Shown here one piece after another: positions 6,923-15,112 of a DNA stretch of 64,000 nt. A model generated the notes under the pieces. That model was not told where the DNA came from. It saw nothing but the letters and a program-made list of their open reading frames with translations, and did not search any database. Both the position numbers and the translations under genes were made by a program. This stretch comes from Alitabrizicola rongguiensis (GTDB taxonomy: Bacteria; Pseudomonadota; Alphaproteobacteria; Rhodobacterales; Rhodobacteraceae), in contig NZ_JAKENF010000005.1 in assembly GCF_021491355.1 (NCBI RefSeq), positions 62,001 through 126,000 of the forward strand. The letters are read 5' to 3'. Position 1 is the first letter of the stretch. Every line of letters starts with the position of its first letter.

Positions 6923-8059
6923 GTGAAGAAGACCGAAACTACGATGAATCGCCGTACAGTCCTGAAGGGCACGGCGCTTGGCCTCGGCGCCCTGGCGGCT
7001 CCGGCCATTATCCCGCGCAGCGCGCTCGCCTCGTCGGGCGAGGTGAATTTCATGGGTTGGGCCGGCTATCCGGTTCTGGCCGAGAAGGTCTTCCCGGCTT
7101 TCACGGAAGCGACCGGGATCAAGGTGAATTTCGTCGAGCAGCCCGACCAGGACGCGTTCTTTGCCCAGGGCAAGCTGGCGCTTCAGACCGGCGGCACCGA
7201 CATCATCGAGCCGACACTCGACCGTGTGGCTGGCTGGAACCAGAACGGGCTTCTCCAGCCCTGGGACACCGCCAAGCTGGCGATGGACAACTACGTGTCC
7301 GGCCTGGCCGACGGCGCCGCTGGCGAGCGCGCCACGATCGACGGCGGTCGCATGATCGTTCCGTCGGTTTGGGGCACCGAGGCGCTGGTTCACAGCACCG
7401 CCGATTTCCCGACCGAGTATGGCAAGGCGAGCCTCGGCGACCTGTTCGCACCCGAGCAGGCTGGCAAGGTCTGCGTCCGCGCCCACTCGGCGTTGGCGGC
7501 TATGGGGCGTTACCTTGATGCCGAAGGCAAGCTGCCGAAGCCCTGGCTCGACGGCTACAAGGACGAAGCCACGATGGTCGAGCTGTGGGACATCGCTCTG
7601 GCCGAGGCGATCAAGGCCAAGGGCAACATCGTCCAGTGGTGGTCGGGCGAGAACGAAGCTCAGGCTGGCTTCCTGACCAACGGTGCGACGCTTGGCCTGT
7701 GCTGGGATTCGACCGGCTACAACCTGCGTGAGCAGGGCTACAGCTACGTTCCGCCGAAAGAGGGCGCCTTCGCCTGGAACCAGGGCTTCGTTCTGATGAA
7801 GAACGCGACCAACATCGACCAGGCGCATGAATTCGCCAAGTGGGTGTCGACCGCCGATGGTTCGTCGATGTGGGCCAGCGCCTTCTCGGCAAACCCGGTC
7901 GGCAAGGGCGGTATCGACAAGATGGATCCGGCAGTGGCCGCCTTCTACAACGGCGCCTTCAATGCAGATGCGCTGTCGAAGCTGTGGTGGTGGCCGGACC
8001 AGGAAGCGTGGTTCATCGCCAAGCGCGGCGAATACGCGGACAAGTTCAAGGCTGCCTGA
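6923..8059 (+). CDS. ABC transporter substrate-binding protein, spermidine/putrescine (PotD/PotF) type
   Basis: The 378-residue product is the periplasmic receptor of the importer encoded by the next three genes. It begins with a Tat-type signal (NRRTVLKG, then a hydrophobic stretch ending in SALA at about residue 37), so it is probably exported folded. The mature part has the bilobed family 1 fold, opening with VNFMGWAGYPVLAEKVFPAF. The family binds polyamines, but relatives take up other small cations or amino compounds, so the ligand is open. GTG 6923 is chosen for its AAGGGAG site; an in-frame ATG at 6944 would also keep the twin-Arg motif. A strong stem-loop follows the gene, expected to keep receptor mRNA more abundant than that of the membrane subunits. 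Confidence 0.88.
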   Translation: MKKTETTMNRRTVLKGTALGLGALAAPAIIPRSALASSGEVNFMGWAGYPVLAEKVFPAFTEATGIKVNFVEQPDQDAFFAQGKLALQTGGTDIIEPTLDRVAGWNQNGLLQPWDTAKLAMDNYVSGLADGAAGERATIDGGRMIVPSVWGTEALVHSTADFPTEYGKASLGDLFAPEQAGKVCVRAHSALAAMGRYLDAEGKLPKPWLDGYKDEATMVELWDIALAEAIKAKGNIVQWWSGENEAQAGFLTNGATLGLCWDSTGYNLREQGYSYVPPKEGAFAWNQGFVLMKNATNIDQAHEFAKWVSTADGSSMWASAFSANPVGKGGIDKMDPAVAAFYNGAFNADALSKLWWWPDQEAWFIAKRGEYADKFKAA

Positions 8060-8077
8060 GAAAGCGGCACATACAGA

Positions 8078-8108
8078 CCCGCCGGCGCTTTGCGCGCCGG
8101 CGGGTTTT
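8078..8108 (+). terminator. Stem-loop with U-run between receptor and ATPase genes (attenuator/partial terminator)
   Basis: CCCGCCGGCGC at 8078-8088 pairs perfectly with GCGCCGGCGGG at 8094-8104 across the loop TTTGC, followed by TTTT. This has intrinsic-terminator form but sits inside an operon, so it probably gives partial read-through or protects the receptor transcript's 3' end. Confidence 0.75.
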
Positions 8109-8172
8109 GCAATGAAACCAAGACCAGCCCAAGGCTGGCAACGCCAACAGGGAAAAGGGGCTGCGACACGCG

Positions 8173-9270
8173 ATGAGCGCCGGGGTCGAACTTGATAATG
8201 TCACGATGGAATTCGGCAGCTTCCGCGCCGTCGACAACGTGTCGGTGAATATCCAGCCGGGGGAATTCTTTTCCTTCCTTGGTCCGTCGGGCTGCGGCAA
8301 GACGACCATCCTGAGGATGATTTCTGGCTTCATCCAGCCGACGAAAGGGTTGGTGAAGATCGGCGGAAAGGACATGCAAGGCGCGCGACCGAACCAGCGC
8401 CCGACGGCGCTGATCTTCCAGAACCTCGCGCTGTTCCCTCTGATGCCTGTCTGGGAAAACATCGCCTTCGGGCTTGAAGTGCGCGGCGTCGACAAGGCCA
8501 AGCGCCGGGCGCGGGCCGAGGAGCTTCTGCGTCTCGTCGATCTGCCGGATGCAGCGGACAAGCGGGTGAGCCAGCTTTCGGGCGGACAGAAGCAGAGGGT
8601 GGCGATCGCCCGTGCGCTTGCGGTGGAGCCGTCGGTGATGCTGCTGGACGAACCGTTGTCCGCTCTGGACTTGAAACTCCGCCAGCACATGCGGGCAGAA
8701 CTGCGGGCCATCCAGAAACGCACCCAGGTGACCTTCATCTATATCACCCACGACCAGGGCGAGGCGCTGGCCATGTCCGACCGCGTGGGCGTCATGAGCC
8801 ACGGCAAGCTGCAGCAGGTCGCCGTGCCGCAGGACATCTACAATAATCCCGCCAATGGTTTCGTCGCCTCTTTCGTGGGCGAAAACAACATCCTGAGCGG
8901 CGATATCACCGGCGAAGAAGGGGGTCTTGTTTCCTTTGCCACGCCGAGCGGCACGTTCTCGGCGCGGCTTGGACCTGGTGTCAGCAAGGGCGCGAAGGCC
9001 CGGCTTTTCCTGCGTCCCGAACATGCGCGGCTGTCGACCGAGGCCGGCAAGGAGAACTCGGTGCCGGTCGAGGTGACCGATGTAGCCTTCGAAGGCAATT
9101 TCATCAGCGTCCATTCGGTTGATGCCAAGGGGCAGACCTACATCTCGGAGGCACGAAACGATGGCTCAGCCGTCATTCCGGGGCGCGGCGACAAGCGTCA
9201 CATCGTGTTCGAAGGACAGCACGCCGTACTTCTGACCGGTGACATCTCGGCCAAGGACGTCGACGAATGA
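8173..9270 (+). CDS. ABC transporter ATP-binding protein, PotA type
   Basis: The 365-residue ATPase energises the polyamine-type importer. It has Walker A GPSGCGKTT (about residues 38-46), a Q-loop (FQNLALFP), signature LSGGQKQRVAIARA, Walker B VMLLDEPLSALD and H-loop THDQ. A C-terminal TOBE/MOP-like domain (about 280-360) is usual in PotA, MalK and CysA proteins and often regulatory. Start ATG 8173 lies downstream of the stem-loop at 8078-8108. The stop overlaps the first permease start by ATGA, giving translational coupling. Confidence 0.92.
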   Translation: MSAGVELDNVTMEFGSFRAVDNVSVNIQPGEFFSFLGPSGCGKTTILRMISGFIQPTKGLVKIGGKDMQGARPNQRPTALIFQNLALFPLMPVWENIAFGLEVRGVDKAKRRARAEELLRLVDLPDAADKRVSQLSGGQKQRVAIARALAVEPSVMLLDEPLSALDLKLRQHMRAELRAIQKRTQVTFIYITHDQGEALAMSDRVGVMSHGKLQQVAVPQDIYNNPANGFVASFVGENNILSGDITGEEGGLVSFATPSGTFSARLGPGVSKGAKARLFLRPEHARLSTEAGKENSVPVEVTDVAFEGNFISVHSVDAKGQTYISEARNDGSAVIPGRGDKRHIVFEGQHAVLLTGDISAKDVDE

Positions 9271-10151
9271 GCGACCTCCTCAATCGCTATGGCGGGCTTC
9301 TGACCGCAATCTTCATCCTTCTGACGGCCTTCTGGCTGCTGATGCTGGTGATCCTTCCGAACATTTACCTGTTCGAGAACTCGTTCCGGCCCTACCTGCC
9401 GGTCAACGAAATGGGCGGGCCGAAGGATGTCTACAGCCTGAACAACTACCTGACATTCTTCAAAAGTCCGATCCACATGAACGTCTTCGTGTGGACGATC
9501 ATCTATTCCAGCCTAGTGACGCTGATCTGTTTCATCATCGCCTATCCGCTGGCCTACTACATGTCCAAGATCGCGCCCGACAGGATCATACCGACGCTTT
9601 TCCTGCTCCTGTTCGTCCCGCTCTGGGTCTCCGAGGTGCTTCGCAGCTTCGCCTGGTTCATCATCCTGGCGCTGAAGGGGCCGCTGAACTCGACTCTTCT
9701 GGGGCTGGGGATCATCGAGGCGCCGGTGCGCTGGATCATGGGGTTCCGTGGCGTCGTGATCGGGCTTGTGTACACGTATGTCCTGTTCATGCTGTTTCCG
9801 ATCTACAACGCGATCCAGTCACTCGACACCAACCAGATCGAGGCGGCCGAGGATCTGGGTTCGCCCTGGTGGCGCACGCACCTGCGGGTGATCCTGCCGC
9901 ATTCGAAACCTGGCATCGCCTCTGGCGCGGTCATGGTGTTCATGTTGTCAGCCGGGTCCATCCTCGTGCCGACGCTTCTGGCATCGACCACGTCGCGCTG
10001 GTTCACCGAGATCATCCAGCAGTGGATGTTCGAGAGCCAGGATTGGAACACGGGGTCGGCCTATGCGTTCCTGCTGCTGATCCTGTGTACGGTGTTCGTC
10101 TCGGTCGTGATGCGGGTGTTCCGCGTCAAGCTGTCCGACATCGCGAAGTAA
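9267..10151 (+). CDS. ABC transporter permease, PotB type
   Basis: The 294-residue inner-membrane permease has about six hydrophobic segments and the coupling loop EAAEDLGSPWWRTHLRVILPHSKPG (about residues 191-215), which matches the EAA motif that docks on the ATPase. It overlaps the ATPase gene by ATGA and is followed 12 bp later by the second permease, so the two form the heterodimeric channel. Length and motif match PotB/PotH. Confidence 0.9.
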   Translation: MSDLLNRYGGLLTAIFILLTAFWLLMLVILPNIYLFENSFRPYLPVNEMGGPKDVYSLNNYLTFFKSPIHMNVFVWTIIYSSLVTLICFIIAYPLAYYMSKIAPDRIIPTLFLLLFVPLWVSEVLRSFAWFIILALKGPLNSTLLGLGIIEAPVRWIMGFRGVVIGLVYTYVLFMLFPIYNAIQSLDTNQIEAAEDLGSPWWRTHLRVILPHSKPGIASGAVMVFMLSAGSILVPTLLASTTSRWFTEIIQQWMFESQDWNTGSAYAFLLLILCTVFVSVVMRVFRVKLSDIAK

Positions 10152-10163
10152 GGGGAGGGGCAG

Positions 10164-10949
10164 ATGCGCAAATCGAACTTCCTCTTCCACCTCTACATGG
10201 TGCTGTTCCTCATCTATATGATCCTGCCGCTGGTGGTCATGGGCGGGGCGGCGTTCAACGACTCGCGTTTTCCGTCGATCTACCCCTGGGTGGGCTGGAC
10301 GGACCGCTGGTTCATCGAGTTGTGGAAGGACACCCGCATGTGGGTCGCCTTCCGCAACACGATCCTGGTGGCGCTGGCGGTCGTGGCGATCTCGATCCCG
10401 ATCGGTACAGCGGCGGCGATCCTCATCAACTCGATTGCCGGCTCGACCCGGACGGTGCTCTATTCGCTGATGGTGGCGCCGATCCTGACCCCCGGCGCGG
10501 TCATCGGGATCTCGACACTGCTGTTCTGGAACACGCTAAATGTTCCGGCCGGCCTGCATCTGTCGGTGCTGGGTCAGGTGTCGTTCATCGCGGCCTTCGT
10601 GATGCTCCTGGTGCTGGCGCGGCTGCAAAGCTTCGACCGGGGGCTGGAAGAGGCGGCGCTCGACCTTGGCGCCAGCCATGCGCAGGTGCTGCGTCGGATC
10701 CTGTTGCCGCACCTGTACCCGGCGATCGGGGCGGGAGCGGCGATCGGTTTCTTCCAGTCGATCGAGAACTTCAACGTCACGCTCTTCACCCGCGGCACCT
10801 ATGACACGCTTACGGTCTATGTGTTCTCCAAGGTACGGACGGGCATTACCCCGACGATCAACGCGCTGGCACTGATCCTGATCGCCGTCACGCTGTTCTG
10901 CGCGATCGCCTACGAGGTGCGCCGCCGCGCCGTCGCGCGGCGGGGCTGA
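10164..10949 (+). CDS. ABC transporter permease, PotC type
   Basis: The 261-residue second permease has about six membrane segments and the EAA loop EEAALDLGASHAQVLRRILLPHLYP (about 170-195). A ribosome site GGGGAGGGG sits just before the ATG. It pairs with the upstream permease. It closes the four-gene importer; a 10-bp stem-loop without a U-run follows. Confidence 0.9.
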   Translation: MRKSNFLFHLYMVLFLIYMILPLVVMGGAAFNDSRFPSIYPWVGWTDRWFIELWKDTRMWVAFRNTILVALAVVAISIPIGTAAAILINSIAGSTRTVLYSLMVAPILTPGAVIGISTLLFWNTLNVPAGLHLSVLGQVSFIAAFVMLLVLARLQSFDRGLEEAALDLGASHAQVLRRILLPHLYPAIGAGAAIGFFQSIENFNVTLFTRGTYDTLTVYVFSKVRTGITPTINALALILIAVTLFCAIAYEVRRRAVARRG

Positions 10950-11046: not shown

Positions 11047-12381
11047 ATGGACCCATCGCGCCGCGACGTGTTGCTGGCGGGGCTTGCCTTGCAGGTCGCT
11101 GCTTTCTTGCCGCGCTCAGCAAGGGCCGAAGCGGAGCGCCCATCGCCGGAAGAAGTGATGGCGACGTGGTATCGTCTGGTCCTGGAGCTTGTCCGCCACA
11201 CGCCGACCTATTCGCCGCCGGTGGCGAGCCGCGCCTTCGCCTATCTTGGTATCTCGGTCTACGAGGCGCTGGCGCAGGGCAAGGCGCCGATGGTCAGCCT
11301 TGCAGGGCAATTGCACAGCTTGAAGCCGGTTCCCGCTGCGGTCGATCCTCTGGCCGAATGTGACGAGGCCGTGCTGCTGCATTCGGTCTTTGCCGACGCG
11401 GTGCGCATCTTCTTCAGCAATACCGGTCCGACCGGACAGCGGGCGATGAAGGCGATGACCGACAGGCTCGGGGCCAAAGTCGCAGCCGGGTTGTCGCCGG
11501 AGGTCGTCGAACGCAGCGCGGCGCAGGGCAGGGCGGTTGTCGACCACATCGTTGCCTGGTCACAGGACGATGGCGGTGCGGTCATCGAGAACATGGGTTT
11601 TCCCCTTGACTATGAACCTAGCCGCGACCCCGGACACTGGCGTCCGACCAGCACGATCGCGCAGCAGCAGGCGCCGCTTCTGCCGAACTGGGGCACGAAC
11701 CGGCCCTTTGCCATGCCGTCGCCCACGGCCTGCACGCTGCCGCCACCACCGGCCTACAGTGAGGAAAAGGGGACAGAGTTCTACGCCGAGGCCTTGGAGG
11801 TCTATGAGACGGTCCGCAATCTGACCCCGGAACAGACGGCGATTGCGCGCTTCTGGTCCGACGACCCGATGCTGTCGACCACACCGCCCGGCCATTGGAA
11901 CCAGATCGCGCTTGAGCAGCTCGAGATCGAGAATGCCCCTGCCAGGCGGCGGGCCGAGGTGATGGCCCGGCTGGGGATCACGGTTGCCGATGCCTTCATT
12001 GCCTGCTGGCAATCCAAGTATGAGTACGACCTTGTCCGGCCAGTCACCTACATCAAGAAGGTCATCGACAAGACCTGGGAGCCTCTGCTCATCACGCCGC
12101 CTTTCCCGGAATATCCATCGGGCCACAGCACGCAATCAGGCGCGGCAGCCAGGGTGTTGACCGCAATCTGGGGGAACAACTTCGCCTTCACCGATACCAG
12201 CCACGAAGATGATGGCTTGCCGTCGCGATCCTATCCGAGCTTCTGGGCGGCGGCTGACGAGGCGGGGATCTCGCGCCTTTACGGCGGCATCCACTTCCGT
12301 TCGGCAATCGACCGTGGGCTGGAGCAGGGGCGCTGCGTCGGGGCATTTGCCGTCGCCCTGAAAATGGGCGCACAGGCATGA
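11047..12381 (+). CDS. Tat-exported vanadium-dependent haloperoxidase / PAP2-family protein
   Basis: The 444-residue product has a twin-arginine signal (SRRDVLLAGLALQ...ARA, residues 4-28) after ATG 11047, which follows GGGAGGACA. The vanadate-pocket residues are all in place: K324 and R331 (KYEYDLVRP), S358-G359-H360 (YPSGHS), R410 and H416 (SRLYGGIHF). The K-to-R spacing (7) and R-to-H spacing (6) equal those of fungal vanadium chloroperoxidase. Such enzymes oxidise halide with peroxide; the same scaffold also serves acid phosphatases, so halogenation is inferred. Its stop overlaps the next start by ATGA, so it is coupled to the secreted VCBS protein and then the dehydrogenase. Action is expected in the periplasm. 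Confidence 0.85.
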   Translation: MDPSRRDVLLAGLALQVAAFLPRSARAEAERPSPEEVMATWYRLVLELVRHTPTYSPPVASRAFAYLGISVYEALAQGKAPMVSLAGQLHSLKPVPAAVDPLAECDEAVLLHSVFADAVRIFFSNTGPTGQRAMKAMTDRLGAKVAAGLSPEVVERSAAQGRAVVDHIVAWSQDDGGAVIENMGFPLDYEPSRDPGHWRPTSTIAQQQAPLLPNWGTNRPFAMPSPTACTLPPPPAYSEEKGTEFYAEALEVYETVRNLTPEQTAIARFWSDDPMLSTTPPGHWNQIALEQLEIENAPARRRAEVMARLGITVADAFIACWQSKYEYDLVRPVTYIKKVIDKTWEPLLITPPFPEYPSGHSTQSGAAARVLTAIWGNNFAFTDTSHEDDGLPSRSYPSFWAAADEAGISRLYGGIHFRSAIDRGLEQGRCVGAFAVALKMGAQA

Positions 12382-13967
12382 GAGTTATCGCCGTCGCGCT
12401 GCCTTCGATGCTGCTTGCCGGGCCACTGGCCGCCGCCGACCTGCCACTGATCCCGTCCTTCACCGAGGAAACGACGACTGCCGGGGTCGACAGCATCTAT
12501 TCGGGCGACTGGGAATACATGGTAGGCGGTGGCGCGGCAGTGTTCGACTGTTCGGGCGACGGGTTTCCCGACCTGTTCCTTGCCGGCGGCGAGGGCAAGG
12601 CGGGGTTCTGGCGCAATGCCAGCGCCCGGGGCGGGCAACTGCGCTTCGAGAAGACAGAGAGCGGACTGGAACTGGACCATGTGACGGGTGCCTATCCCCT
12701 CGATATCGACAGCGACGGGATCATGGACCTCGTCCTGCTGCGGGTCGGCGAGAACCTGGTCATGAGGGGCGAAGGGCAGTGCCGCTTCACCCCCGCCAAC
12801 AGCGCCTGGGGCTTCGACGGCGGCGACGCCTGGTCAACCGCGCTGGCCGCAACCTGGGAGAAGGGCAACTCCTGGCCCACGATTGCCATCGGCAACTATA
12901 TCGATCGGACGCAGGATGCCTTTCCCTGGGGAAGCTGCACCGCCAATTGGCTCCACCGTCCGAATGTCGGGGGGACGGGCTTCGCCCCGCCGGTTGCGCT
13001 GGAGCCAAGCTACTGCGCGCTGTCGATGCTGTTCACCGACTGGAACCTGTCGGGTACGCCGTCGCTGCGTGTGTCAAACGACCGGGAGTACTACAAGGGC
13101 GGACAGGAGCAGATGTGGAAGGTGCTGCCGGGTCAGCCGCCTGTCCTCTACACCAAGGACGAGGGCTGGAAGTACCTGCGCATCTGGGGAATGGGCATCG
13201 CCTCTGCCGATGTGACGGGCGACGGATACCCCGACTACTTCCTGGCCAGCATGGCCGACAACAAGCTGCAGACGCTGGCGACGCCGCTCAAGGAAGGCGA
13301 GCCCGTGCCCGGCTTTGCCGATGTGGCCTTCGCCCGCGGAGCCACGGCACACCGGCCCTATACCGGGGGCGACGTCAGGCCCTCGACCGCGTGGCACGCG
13401 CAGTTCGAGGATGTGAACAACGACGGCTGGCCTGATCTGTTCGTGGCCAAGGGCAATGTCTCGGACATGCCGGATTTCGCTCGGAACGACCCCAACAACC
13501 TGATGCTCATGGATGACCAGGGCAAGTTTCACGAGGTCGGCGACAAGGCCGGCGTCGCCAGCATGGCGGTGTCGCGTGGCGGGGCGCTGGCGGATCTGAA
13601 TCTTGATGGGCTGATCGACCTGGTCGTCGTCAACCGCCATTCTCCGGCGCAGATCTGGCGCAACACCACCATCGGCGCTGGGCATTGGCTGGGGTTGAAG
13701 CCGGTGCAGGCGGGTGCAAATCCTGATGCAGTAGGTGGATGGGTCGAGGTCCGGACAGGCGACCGGGTGCAGCGGCGGGAACTGACCGCTGGCGGCGGTC
13801 ATGCAAGCGGCGTGACTGGCTGGTGGCATGCCGGACTCGGGCCGGTCGATCAGGCCGAGGTGCGGGTGATCTGGCCCGATGGCGTGGCCGGCGACTGGGA
13901 GCAGGTTGCGGCGGACACCCTCTATGTTATCGACCGGGACAAGGGTGCGCAGGAATGGACCCCATGA
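12378..13967 (+). CDS. Secreted VCBS/FG-GAP repeat protein with ASPIC/UnbV domain (CRTAC1-like)
   Basis: The 529-residue protein starts with a Sec signal peptide (residues 1-20, ending PLAAA). It then carries at least five FG-GAP/VCBS units with calcium-loop motifs: DCSGDGFPDLF, DIDSDGIMDL, DVTGDGYPDYF, DVNNDGWPDLF and DLNLDGLIDL. The C-terminal 110 residues are an ASPIC/UnbV domain (GHWLGLKP... to ...VIWPDG). These propellers bind calcium and usually mediate protein or surface contacts; no enzyme activity is evident. ATGA overlaps at both ends place it between the haloperoxidase-like gene and the dehydrogenase, suggesting it works with the exported oxidase, perhaps as partner or scaffold. 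Confidence 0.85.
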   Translation: MRVIAVALPSMLLAGPLAAADLPLIPSFTEETTTAGVDSIYSGDWEYMVGGGAAVFDCSGDGFPDLFLAGGEGKAGFWRNASARGGQLRFEKTESGLELDHVTGAYPLDIDSDGIMDLVLLRVGENLVMRGEGQCRFTPANSAWGFDGGDAWSTALAATWEKGNSWPTIAIGNYIDRTQDAFPWGSCTANWLHRPNVGGTGFAPPVALEPSYCALSMLFTDWNLSGTPSLRVSNDREYYKGGQEQMWKVLPGQPPVLYTKDEGWKYLRIWGMGIASADVTGDGYPDYFLASMADNKLQTLATPLKEGEPVPGFADVAFARGATAHRPYTGGDVRPSTAWHAQFEDVNNDGWPDLFVAKGNVSDMPDFARNDPNNLMLMDDQGKFHEVGDKAGVASMAVSRGGALADLNLDGLIDLVVVNRHSPAQIWRNTTIGAGHWLGLKPVQAGANPDAVGGWVEVRTGDRVQRRELTAGGGHASGVTGWWHAGLGPVDQAEVRVIWPDGVAGDWEQVAADTLYVIDRDKGAQEWTP

Positions 13968-15112
13968 AGACTTTTGCGGTCCTGACCCCGCCCCGCATCC
14001 TGTTCGGGCGCGGCGAGGCGGCGAAGGCGCCTGACCTCATCCGGACCTTCGGCAGCCGCGGCCTGGTGGTGCATGGGGCTTCGGCTTCGCGGGCGGCCTG
14101 GCTGGTCGAGGGGCTGCGCGGGACCGGTGCCGAAGTGATGACGCTCGCCTGCCGAGCCGAGCCCGTCCTGGCAGGGGTGCTGGAGGCGACGGAGGCCGCG
14201 CGGGGCTTCCGCCCTGACTGGGTCGCGGCGATCGGCGGCGGGGCTGTGCTTGACTTCGGGAAGGCGCTGGCGGCGCTCGTGCCCTCGGTCACGCCGGCGC
14301 TCGACCACCTGGAGGTGGTGGGCAAGGGCCTGCCACTTGGCACGCCGCCCTTACCCTTTATCGCGCTTCCCACGACGTCGGGCACCGGGTCCGAGGTGAC
14401 GCGCAATGCGGTGATCGGGTTGCCGGAGCATGGGCGGAAGGTCTCGCTTCGCGACGACCGGATGGTGGCGCGGCTGGCCATCGTCGATCCTGCGCTGACC
14501 GACGGCGCGCCGCATCGTGTGACGCTGGCCTCGGGCCTTGATGCGGTTGTGCAGGTGATCGAACCCTATGTCTCGCTGAAGGCAACGCCCTATACCGACG
14601 CACTTTCGCTGCCGGCGATCAAACAGGGGATCGCGGCGCTGGCCCGGCTGATGGAGGGTGAAGATCAGGCGGCCCGTGATGCGCTTTCTTGGGTTAGCCT
14701 GTGCGGCGGACTGGCGCTCAGCAACGGTGGTCTTGGCGCAGTTCACGGCTTTGCCGGAGTCTTGGGTGGGATCATCCCGGCGCCGCATGGGCTGATCTGC
14801 GGGCGACTGATCGGACCGGTGCTGCGGGCGAACAGGGACAGGGTCGGCGGGCCAATGGCCGAGCGCCTGGACCTGGTCTTTGCCGTGCTTGCCTCCGTGC
14901 TGGGGGGGCGGGCCAAGGATGCGCCTGAGAGCCTGTGCGACTGGGTTGCCGCTCAACGGCTGGCCCCACTGCGCGCCTTTGGCCTGGCGCCTGACCGGTT
15001 CGAAGCCGTGGCAGAGGCTGCGCAGTCGTCCTCGTCCATGAAGGGCAATCCGGCGGCGCTGGGCGTCGCCGATCTGGTTGCGATCCTGCAGCACGAAGCG
15101 CGGATCGGTTGA
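13964..15112 (+). CDS. Iron-type (group III) alcohol dehydrogenase with altered metal site
   Basis: The 382-residue protein has the Fe-ADH dinucleotide-binding part (AIGGGAVLDFGKA, about residues 89-101; LPTTSGTGSEVT, 135-146) and C-terminal helical metal domain. Of the usual ligands, D193, H261 and H275 are present, but the His four residues after the Asp is Gln (Q197 in GLDAVVQVIEPY) and the conserved second His near 265 is Gly. Metal choice or catalysis may therefore differ from FucO-like enzymes; a maleylacetate-reductase-like or non-iron branch is possible. ATG 13964 overlaps the previous stop as ATGA, with AGGAA at 13951; ATG 13955 is an alternative. It lacks an export signal and should act in the cytoplasm, unlike its two operon partners. 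Confidence 0.82.
   Translation: MKTFAVLTPPRILFGRGEAAKAPDLIRTFGSRGLVVHGASASRAAWLVEGLRGTGAEVMTLACRAEPVLAGVLEATEAARGFRPDWVAAIGGGAVLDFGKALAALVPSVTPALDHLEVVGKGLPLGTPPLPFIALPTTSGTGSEVTRNAVIGLPEHGRKVSLRDDRMVARLAIVDPALTDGAPHRVTLASGLDAVVQVIEPYVSLKATPYTDALSLPAIKQGIAALARLMEGEDQAARDALSWVSLCGGLALSNGGLGAVHGFAGVLGGIIPAPHGLICGRLIGPVLRANRDRVGGPMAERLDLVFAVLASVLGGRAKDAPESLCDWVAAQRLAPLRAFGLAPDRFEAVAEAAQSSSSMKGNPAALGVADLVAILQHEARIG

Follow-up and report, generated by a model that had tools for sequence, protein, structure and literature searches.

Clear roles are lacking for bacterial vanadium-dependent haloperoxidases (VHPOs) outside biosynthetic clusters and for propellers of the CRTAC1 family. The solved VHPOs closest to the present case are the Zobellia vanadium iodoperoxidase zgVIPO1 (PDB 4cit, 4usz), which belongs to a bacterial subgroup with specificity for iodide only, and the Curvularia vanadium chloroperoxidase (VCPO; 1idu, 1vnc). 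Among heme proteins, MauG and MbnH are enzymes with two hemes whose substrate, which they oxidise, is a partner protein. The activities of di-heme peroxidases of this superfamily range from H2O2 reduction through to post-translational modification (PMC6405878). CRTAC1-family genes also occur among hydrazine-synthase-like alpha and beta-gamma genes, and that study compares the gamma part with CCP/MauG (PMC12758564). A commentary on bacterial haloperoxidases emphasises natural products and quorum signals (PMC8407465). I found no open-access paper joining a vanadium haloperoxidase with CRTAC1 or UnbV, which agrees with the preliminary description of the present locus in that no characterised system of such composition was recognised, and which is weak evidence, most subscription papers lying outside the scope of the search.

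The operon and its two exported proteins

The window (the whole stretch of DNA analysed, 64,000 nucleotides) contains an operon of three overlapping genes, all on the + strand: a VHPO homologue (gene 1, 11047-12381, 444 aa), an exported FG-GAP/UnbV_ASPIC propeller of the CRTAC1 family (gene 2, 12378-13967, 529 aa) and an iron-type alcohol dehydrogenase (gene 3, 13964-15112, 382 aa). The two exact ATGA overlaps by which the preliminary description had joined these genes were confirmed, as were the gene coordinates (overlaps at 12378-12381 and 13964-13967). Further upstream, ABC transporter genes for a binding protein, an ATPase and two permeases occupy 6923-10949 and end 97 bases 5' of the haloperoxidase gene; the ATPase and the binding protein are related to polyamine and aminophosphonate models, with scores below the cut-offs.

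The gene 1 protein matches PAP2 in a profile search (E 3.4e-10), and its best solved relative by sequence is the Zobellia iodoperoxidase (4cit, E 6.7e-78). Its AF2 model (33 sequences, pLDDT 88) has the helical-bundle fold of the VHPO family, with 4usz as the top match (TM 0.83, 37% identity) and vanadium chloroperoxidases next; identity to zgVIPO1 is 37-38% over the two entries, and the pocket residues are shared. The vanadate residues are K324 and R331 (codons K324 to R331, 12016-12039), S358, G359 and H360 (12118-12126), and R410 and H416 (codons R410 to H416, 12274-12294). All seven are invariant across 33 aligned relatives and stand at the same local intervals as in VCPO, with R seven residues after K (K-x6-R), a contiguous SGH and H six residues after R (R-x5-H), so that the full pocket with VCPO-like spacing claimed earlier is indeed present. 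Trp321 and Phe353 align to the Trp and Phe of the VCPO halide site. VCPO differs in being larger, in sharing ~18% identity and in having Asp at the fourth position past the last His, which gene 1 lacks. The nearest solved structure, whether judged by sequence or by fold, makes the gene 1 protein a putative VHPO of zgVIPO1 type, a placement from which halide specificity is not readable.

The N-terminus of the window protein reads SRRDVLLAG, a Tat-like signal consistent with the Tat-type export proposed for it before. An RR motif (loose pattern) was found in 42 of 60 VHPO-propeller pairs, one of the rest being truncated, and for this reason Tat export is ruled out as a trait of the whole family.

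Gene 2 encodes FG-GAP repeats followed by UnbV_ASPIC, both above cut-off (71.5 and 45.5 bits), which bears out its earlier identification as an ASPIC-UnbV propeller. The top fold match of its AF2 model (50 sequences, pLDDT 93) is murine CRTAC1 (9etn; TM 0.72), matched over its full length. The FG-GAP propeller with a UnbV_ASPIC end is thus common to both, whereas identity to CRTAC1 is 19% and gene 2 belongs to a branch from bacteria whose members occur close to peroxidase genes.

Conservation of the haloperoxidase-propeller pair

A pattern scan with one genome per species, which detects close relatives only, gave 56 named loci, all from Alphaproteobacteria by their titles except one titled only 'bacterium'. 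The propeller lies directly 3' of the VHPO on the same strand in 55 of them, and the exception (L049) is a contig end. Within the window's family a VHPO match occurs in 36 of 295 genomes and a close match in 25; of the 25, all but one have the propeller next, and the exception (G091, which is absent from the list of genomes with a propeller match) is again a contig end. Over 60 pairs the propeller start, as chosen, lies no more than 31 nt ahead of the VHPO stop and no more than 32 nt past it, with a 4-base overlap in 19, and the flanking genes vary between loci. Genes 1 and 2 are a real conserved module. The two trees are correlated over the 56 pairs (mirror-tree correlation 0.85), a value not counted as evidence of contact because species relatedness is uncontrolled in it.

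The link is a property of this branch of VHPOs. Thirteen VHPOs that are only distantly related (28-40% identity), drawn from the family and the class, have no such propeller nearby by tblastn at E 1e-3, in stretches of about 4 kb on each side where the contig allows, and the idea that the propeller accompanies any VHPO was therefore rejected for the fetched stretches. A class-wide draw of 385 genomes yielded, besides the window, two distant VHPO relatives, neither with a propeller nearby. Phyla beyond Alphaproteobacteria were sampled through plasmid records only. There, plasmid 2 of Gemmatirosa kalamazoonensis (Gemmatimonadota; L209, 2609-11069) carries a VHPO that shares 40% identity with gene 1; a long FG-GAP/UnbV_ASPIC protein is encoded next, and another match of propeller type lies on the 5' side. 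For six further plasmid VHPOs, also of other groups, tblastn found no propeller nearby; one of them, from Oscillatoria, has an annotated FG-GAP-like repeat protein about 3.3 kb downstream that tblastn did not match.

In six loci (L037, L039, L041, L047, L053, L088) ABC transporter genes and a CDP-alcohol phosphatidyltransferase-like gene come after the pair, a set that resembles E. coli ynjBCDF; the L037 binding protein passes the PRK11622 cut-off.

The third gene is a lineage-specific tail outside the conserved module. Its product matches the Fe-ADH domain family and retains the metal ligands D193, H261 and H275, and Gln197 (codon 14552-14554) stands where the first metal His is usual, so that it has the Asp and two of the three His of an iron-activated alcohol dehydrogenase. 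The preliminary description had rightly noticed the missing His. Since all 12 distinct ADH relatives compared, at an identity of at least 59.5%, have the same Gln, it is a subfamily trait and was rejected as a special feature of gene 3. An ADH follows the VHPO-propeller pair in one of the 56 named loci (L033), and ADH relatives in nine other loci (L180-L188) sit near an FGGY-kinase-like gene, which in L181, the one tested, passes the GlpK cut-off; gene 3 is on these grounds a local addition, incidental to the module. Of the coupling once envisaged for all three genes, the pairing of the two exported families is supported and that with the dehydrogenase is not. As the ADH follows the pair only in L033, the suggestion that a product is detoxified or reduced inside the cell finds no comparative support.

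A separate stretch of Rhodobacteraceae bacterium SC52 (L217, 5842-12813) has a CRTAC1 gene and a cytochrome-c peroxidase gene next to an Fe-ADH that is 30% identical to gene 3 and has His at the position of Gln197; aldehyde dehydrogenase and glutamine synthetase genes are also present, and no xylose gene is annotated there.

Propellers without the haloperoxidase

Propeller relatives are far commoner than this VHPO, with matches, some of them weak, in 156 of the 295 family genomes. I call propellers paired with this VHPO class A and relatives without it class B. About 131 family propellers are unpaired with a VHPO, and the surroundings of 60 were examined; these class B loci are mostly the top of the ranking of the about 131, with some added for their long open frames, and are not a random sample. 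D-xylose genes were found, by thresholds of my own, in 58 of the 60, and representatives of XylF, XylA and XylB pass the NCBIfam cut-offs. A ROK regulator lies directly 5' of the propeller in 50 loci. In 48 loci a di-heme enzyme of the CCP_MauG family is encoded at most 4.5 kb from the propeller, on the opposite strand in 47 of them and hence outside the propeller operon. Two further loci (L126, L141) have a DHOR-type ('putative peroxidase') di-heme protein between the ROK regulator and the propeller, at the place that the VHPO occupies in class A. None of the three kinds of enzyme was found near the other 10 propellers, and two of these 10 genomes have no MauG-like match anywhere. The new observation is that most of the examined propeller relatives without this VHPO sit in D-xylose loci beside a di-heme enzyme of the MauG superfamily.

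Five open reading frames appeared to fuse a ROK regulator to the propeller (L119, L121, L123, L124, L127). Their N-terminal halves resemble GC-rich out-of-frame readings of ROK, and because tblastn places ROK before the propeller in all five loci, the fusion was rejected.

The class B enzyme resembles MauG and MbnH in its CCP_MauG assignment (representative L113) and in having two CxxCH motifs in 51 of 51 sequences. It differs in that L113 scores below the MauG and MbnH cut-offs and in its ligand position: where MauG has Tyr, the axial ligand on its six-coordinate heme, and CCP has Met, 50 of the 51 sequences have His and L151 has Met (motif read by eye). Because of this His, the chemistry of the class B enzyme may differ from that of MauG and CCP. 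The hydrazine-synthase-like clusters likewise combine a gene for a propeller with a nearby one whose di-heme product has been compared with CCP/MauG, and differ in belonging to Planctomycetota and Desulfobacterota, in their additional alpha subunit and in being without a vanadium enzyme (PMC12758564).

The propeller occurs in 14 of the 385 genomes of the class-wide draw, and nine of the 14 belong to other families. A DHOR-like gene lies 5' of the propeller in three of these loci from other families (L189, L192, L196), and four of the nine have xylose genes (L189, L191, L196, L197), with no peroxidase seen in L191 or L197. The propellers of L190, L193 and L195 adjoin other ABC transporter genes, and that of L194, on a short contig, has no recognised partner.

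A very divergent propeller with a long end branch (L125, genome G042) lies next to a xylulokinase-like gene; neither this VHPO nor the MauG-like enzyme has a match in that genome.

Exchange of the partner enzyme

The partner enzymes tend to exclude one another across whole genomes as well. Searched for genome-wide, a MauG-like enzyme occurs in 1 of 26 genomes with a VHPO pair (a copy of 50% identity in G040). Propeller genomes without a nearby copy have one elsewhere in 8 of 10 cases (55-65% identity), propeller-less genomes have one in 2 of 19 (50% identity), and all four positive controls have it. With matches counted at E 1e-30, Fisher's test returns p 1.3e-5 for 1/26 against 8/10 and p 4e-4 for 8/10 against 2/19, values that treat the genomes as independent and are flattering because the genomes are related.

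In a propeller tree of 77 rows, the VHPO-paired propellers make up a single clade of 31 (SH-aLRT 99); L203, where a contig end truncates the haloperoxidase gene, is included among them. Taken by themselves, the three partner types require two changes on this tree, the minimum for three states; if the 16 rows that lack a recognised partner are scored as a fourth state, 14 changes are needed. Since the VHPO-paired propellers are one clade, a single exchange can explain class A, and this clade together with the minimal number of changes means that the exclusion statistics reflect relatedness as well as function. The occurrence of the same kind of propeller beside unrelated enzymes suggests that vanadium and heme peroxidases do the same job with it.

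The propellers themselves differ by partner at some positions. Ten distinguish those paired with a VHPO, and three of the ten (184, 267, 367) are common to most DHOR-paired ones. Residue 237 (Glu in the window, codon 13086-13088) is Glu in 60 of 60 propellers with a VHPO, His in 50 of 51 with a MauG-like partner and Gln in 5 of 5 with a DHOR-like one; in 15 propellers without a recognised partner it is His in nine, Gln in three and other residues in the rest. It is flanked by Asn-Asp-Arg and Tyr, which are invariant in the three partnered classes except for one Asp in place of Asn. Judging by the strands and the calcium-type loops, the class-distinguishing positions, 237 among them, probably occupy the propeller face opposite the calcium loops. 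Because the VHPO-paired propellers are one clade, ancestry confounds any link between partner type and propeller residues.

What the module may do

What could tie a vanadium enzyme and two kinds of heme enzyme to one propeller? The account I favour, with somewhat better than even confidence, is that the VHPO displaced a di-heme peroxidase-type enzyme as the dedicated oxidant of one propeller in a two-protein extracytoplasmic module. It builds on the pairing of the genes, the signal-like N-termini, the pocket, the exchange of the neighbouring enzyme and the mutual exclusion. Genes 1 and 2 would then form an extracytoplasmic oxidation module of a zgVIPO1-type vanadate enzyme and a dedicated CRTAC1-like propeller. 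Many alphaproteobacterial D-xylose loci have the same kind of propeller with a di-heme MauG-superfamily enzyme beside it, some lineages have a DHOR-type di-heme protein directly 5' of the propeller, and in the window's lineage the vanadium haloperoxidase would have taken the heme enzyme's place. All three enzymes would most likely supply an H2O2-driven oxidation acting on, or steered by, the conserved face of the propeller, which presupposes use of H2O2, physical contact, an oxidised target and an enzyme acting on or through the propeller. The simplest account would be that one propeller requires one periplasmic oxidant, vanadium or heme based.

An unlikely but serious alternative is that the peroxidases merely remove or use periplasmic H2O2 or halide, with the propeller as a passive scaffold or stabiliser. 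The VHPO, MauG-superfamily and DHOR enzymes are all peroxidase-like, and the propeller resembles interaction proteins in its fold, CRTAC1, the LGI1-ADAM22 pair and integrins among them. However, a passive scaffold would hardly hold 88 positions at 97% conservation or more over 131 aligned sequences (among them four Cys, Trp152, 264, 270 and 339, His340 and Lys358), nor would it be expected to accompany three different enzymes, and the propeller is the constant and by far the commoner part.

It is improbable, in my estimate, that the propeller itself catalyses or senses a sugar-linked step, for instance by oxidising or binding xylose or an oligosaccharide, with a peroxidase that clears its H2O2 or matures it. 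Besides the xylose genes and ROK regulators that prevail in class B, class A has xylose genes (same thresholds) in 25 of its 56 loci and a ROK regulator immediately 5' of the VHPO in 12 of the 56, and aldos-2-ulose dehydratase (4a7y) ranks ninth among the fold matches of the propeller model. Yet no xylose gene was found in the other 31 class A loci within the stretches at hand, some of them short, nor does one adjoin the window operon, and the 4a7y match is to a propeller in general, with no catalytic residues recognised.

Still within an oxidative role, I regard as doubtful the more specific proposal that the partner enzyme matures the propeller by oxidising or halogenating the propeller's side chains in an H2O2-dependent reaction, the invariant Trp or Tyr on the non-calcium face being examples. 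The maturing enzyme would be MauG-like or DHOR-like and di-heme in most lineages, and the VHPO here. If true, this would make a vanadium enzyme a protein-modifying enzyme that substitutes for a heme enzyme.

That gene 1 encodes a vanadate-inhibitable phosphatase, its neighbourhood reflecting phosphate chemistry, is very improbable: the pocket is common to the PAP2 superfamily, sequence cannot settle the choice between phosphatase and haloperoxidase, and acid phosphatases appear as weak fold matches, but haloperoxidases are closest by both sequence and fold, Ala420 replaces what I take to be the Asp of the phosphatase motif SRX5HX3D, and the alternative partners are heme proteins.

The preferred reading, an oxidant exchanged on a constant propeller, turns a shared propeller with a vanadium- or heme-filled enzyme slot into one testable question for both protein families. 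Phaeobacter inhibens DSM 17395 is a tractable host for it, with the heme version in a xylose locus.

An annotated example of that version lies on its plasmid pPGA1_262 (NC_018291.1; L216, 5474-11861), where the gene order is xylF, ROK, CRTAC1 family protein, cytochrome c peroxidase and aldose epimerase (PGA1_RS18345 to RS18325).
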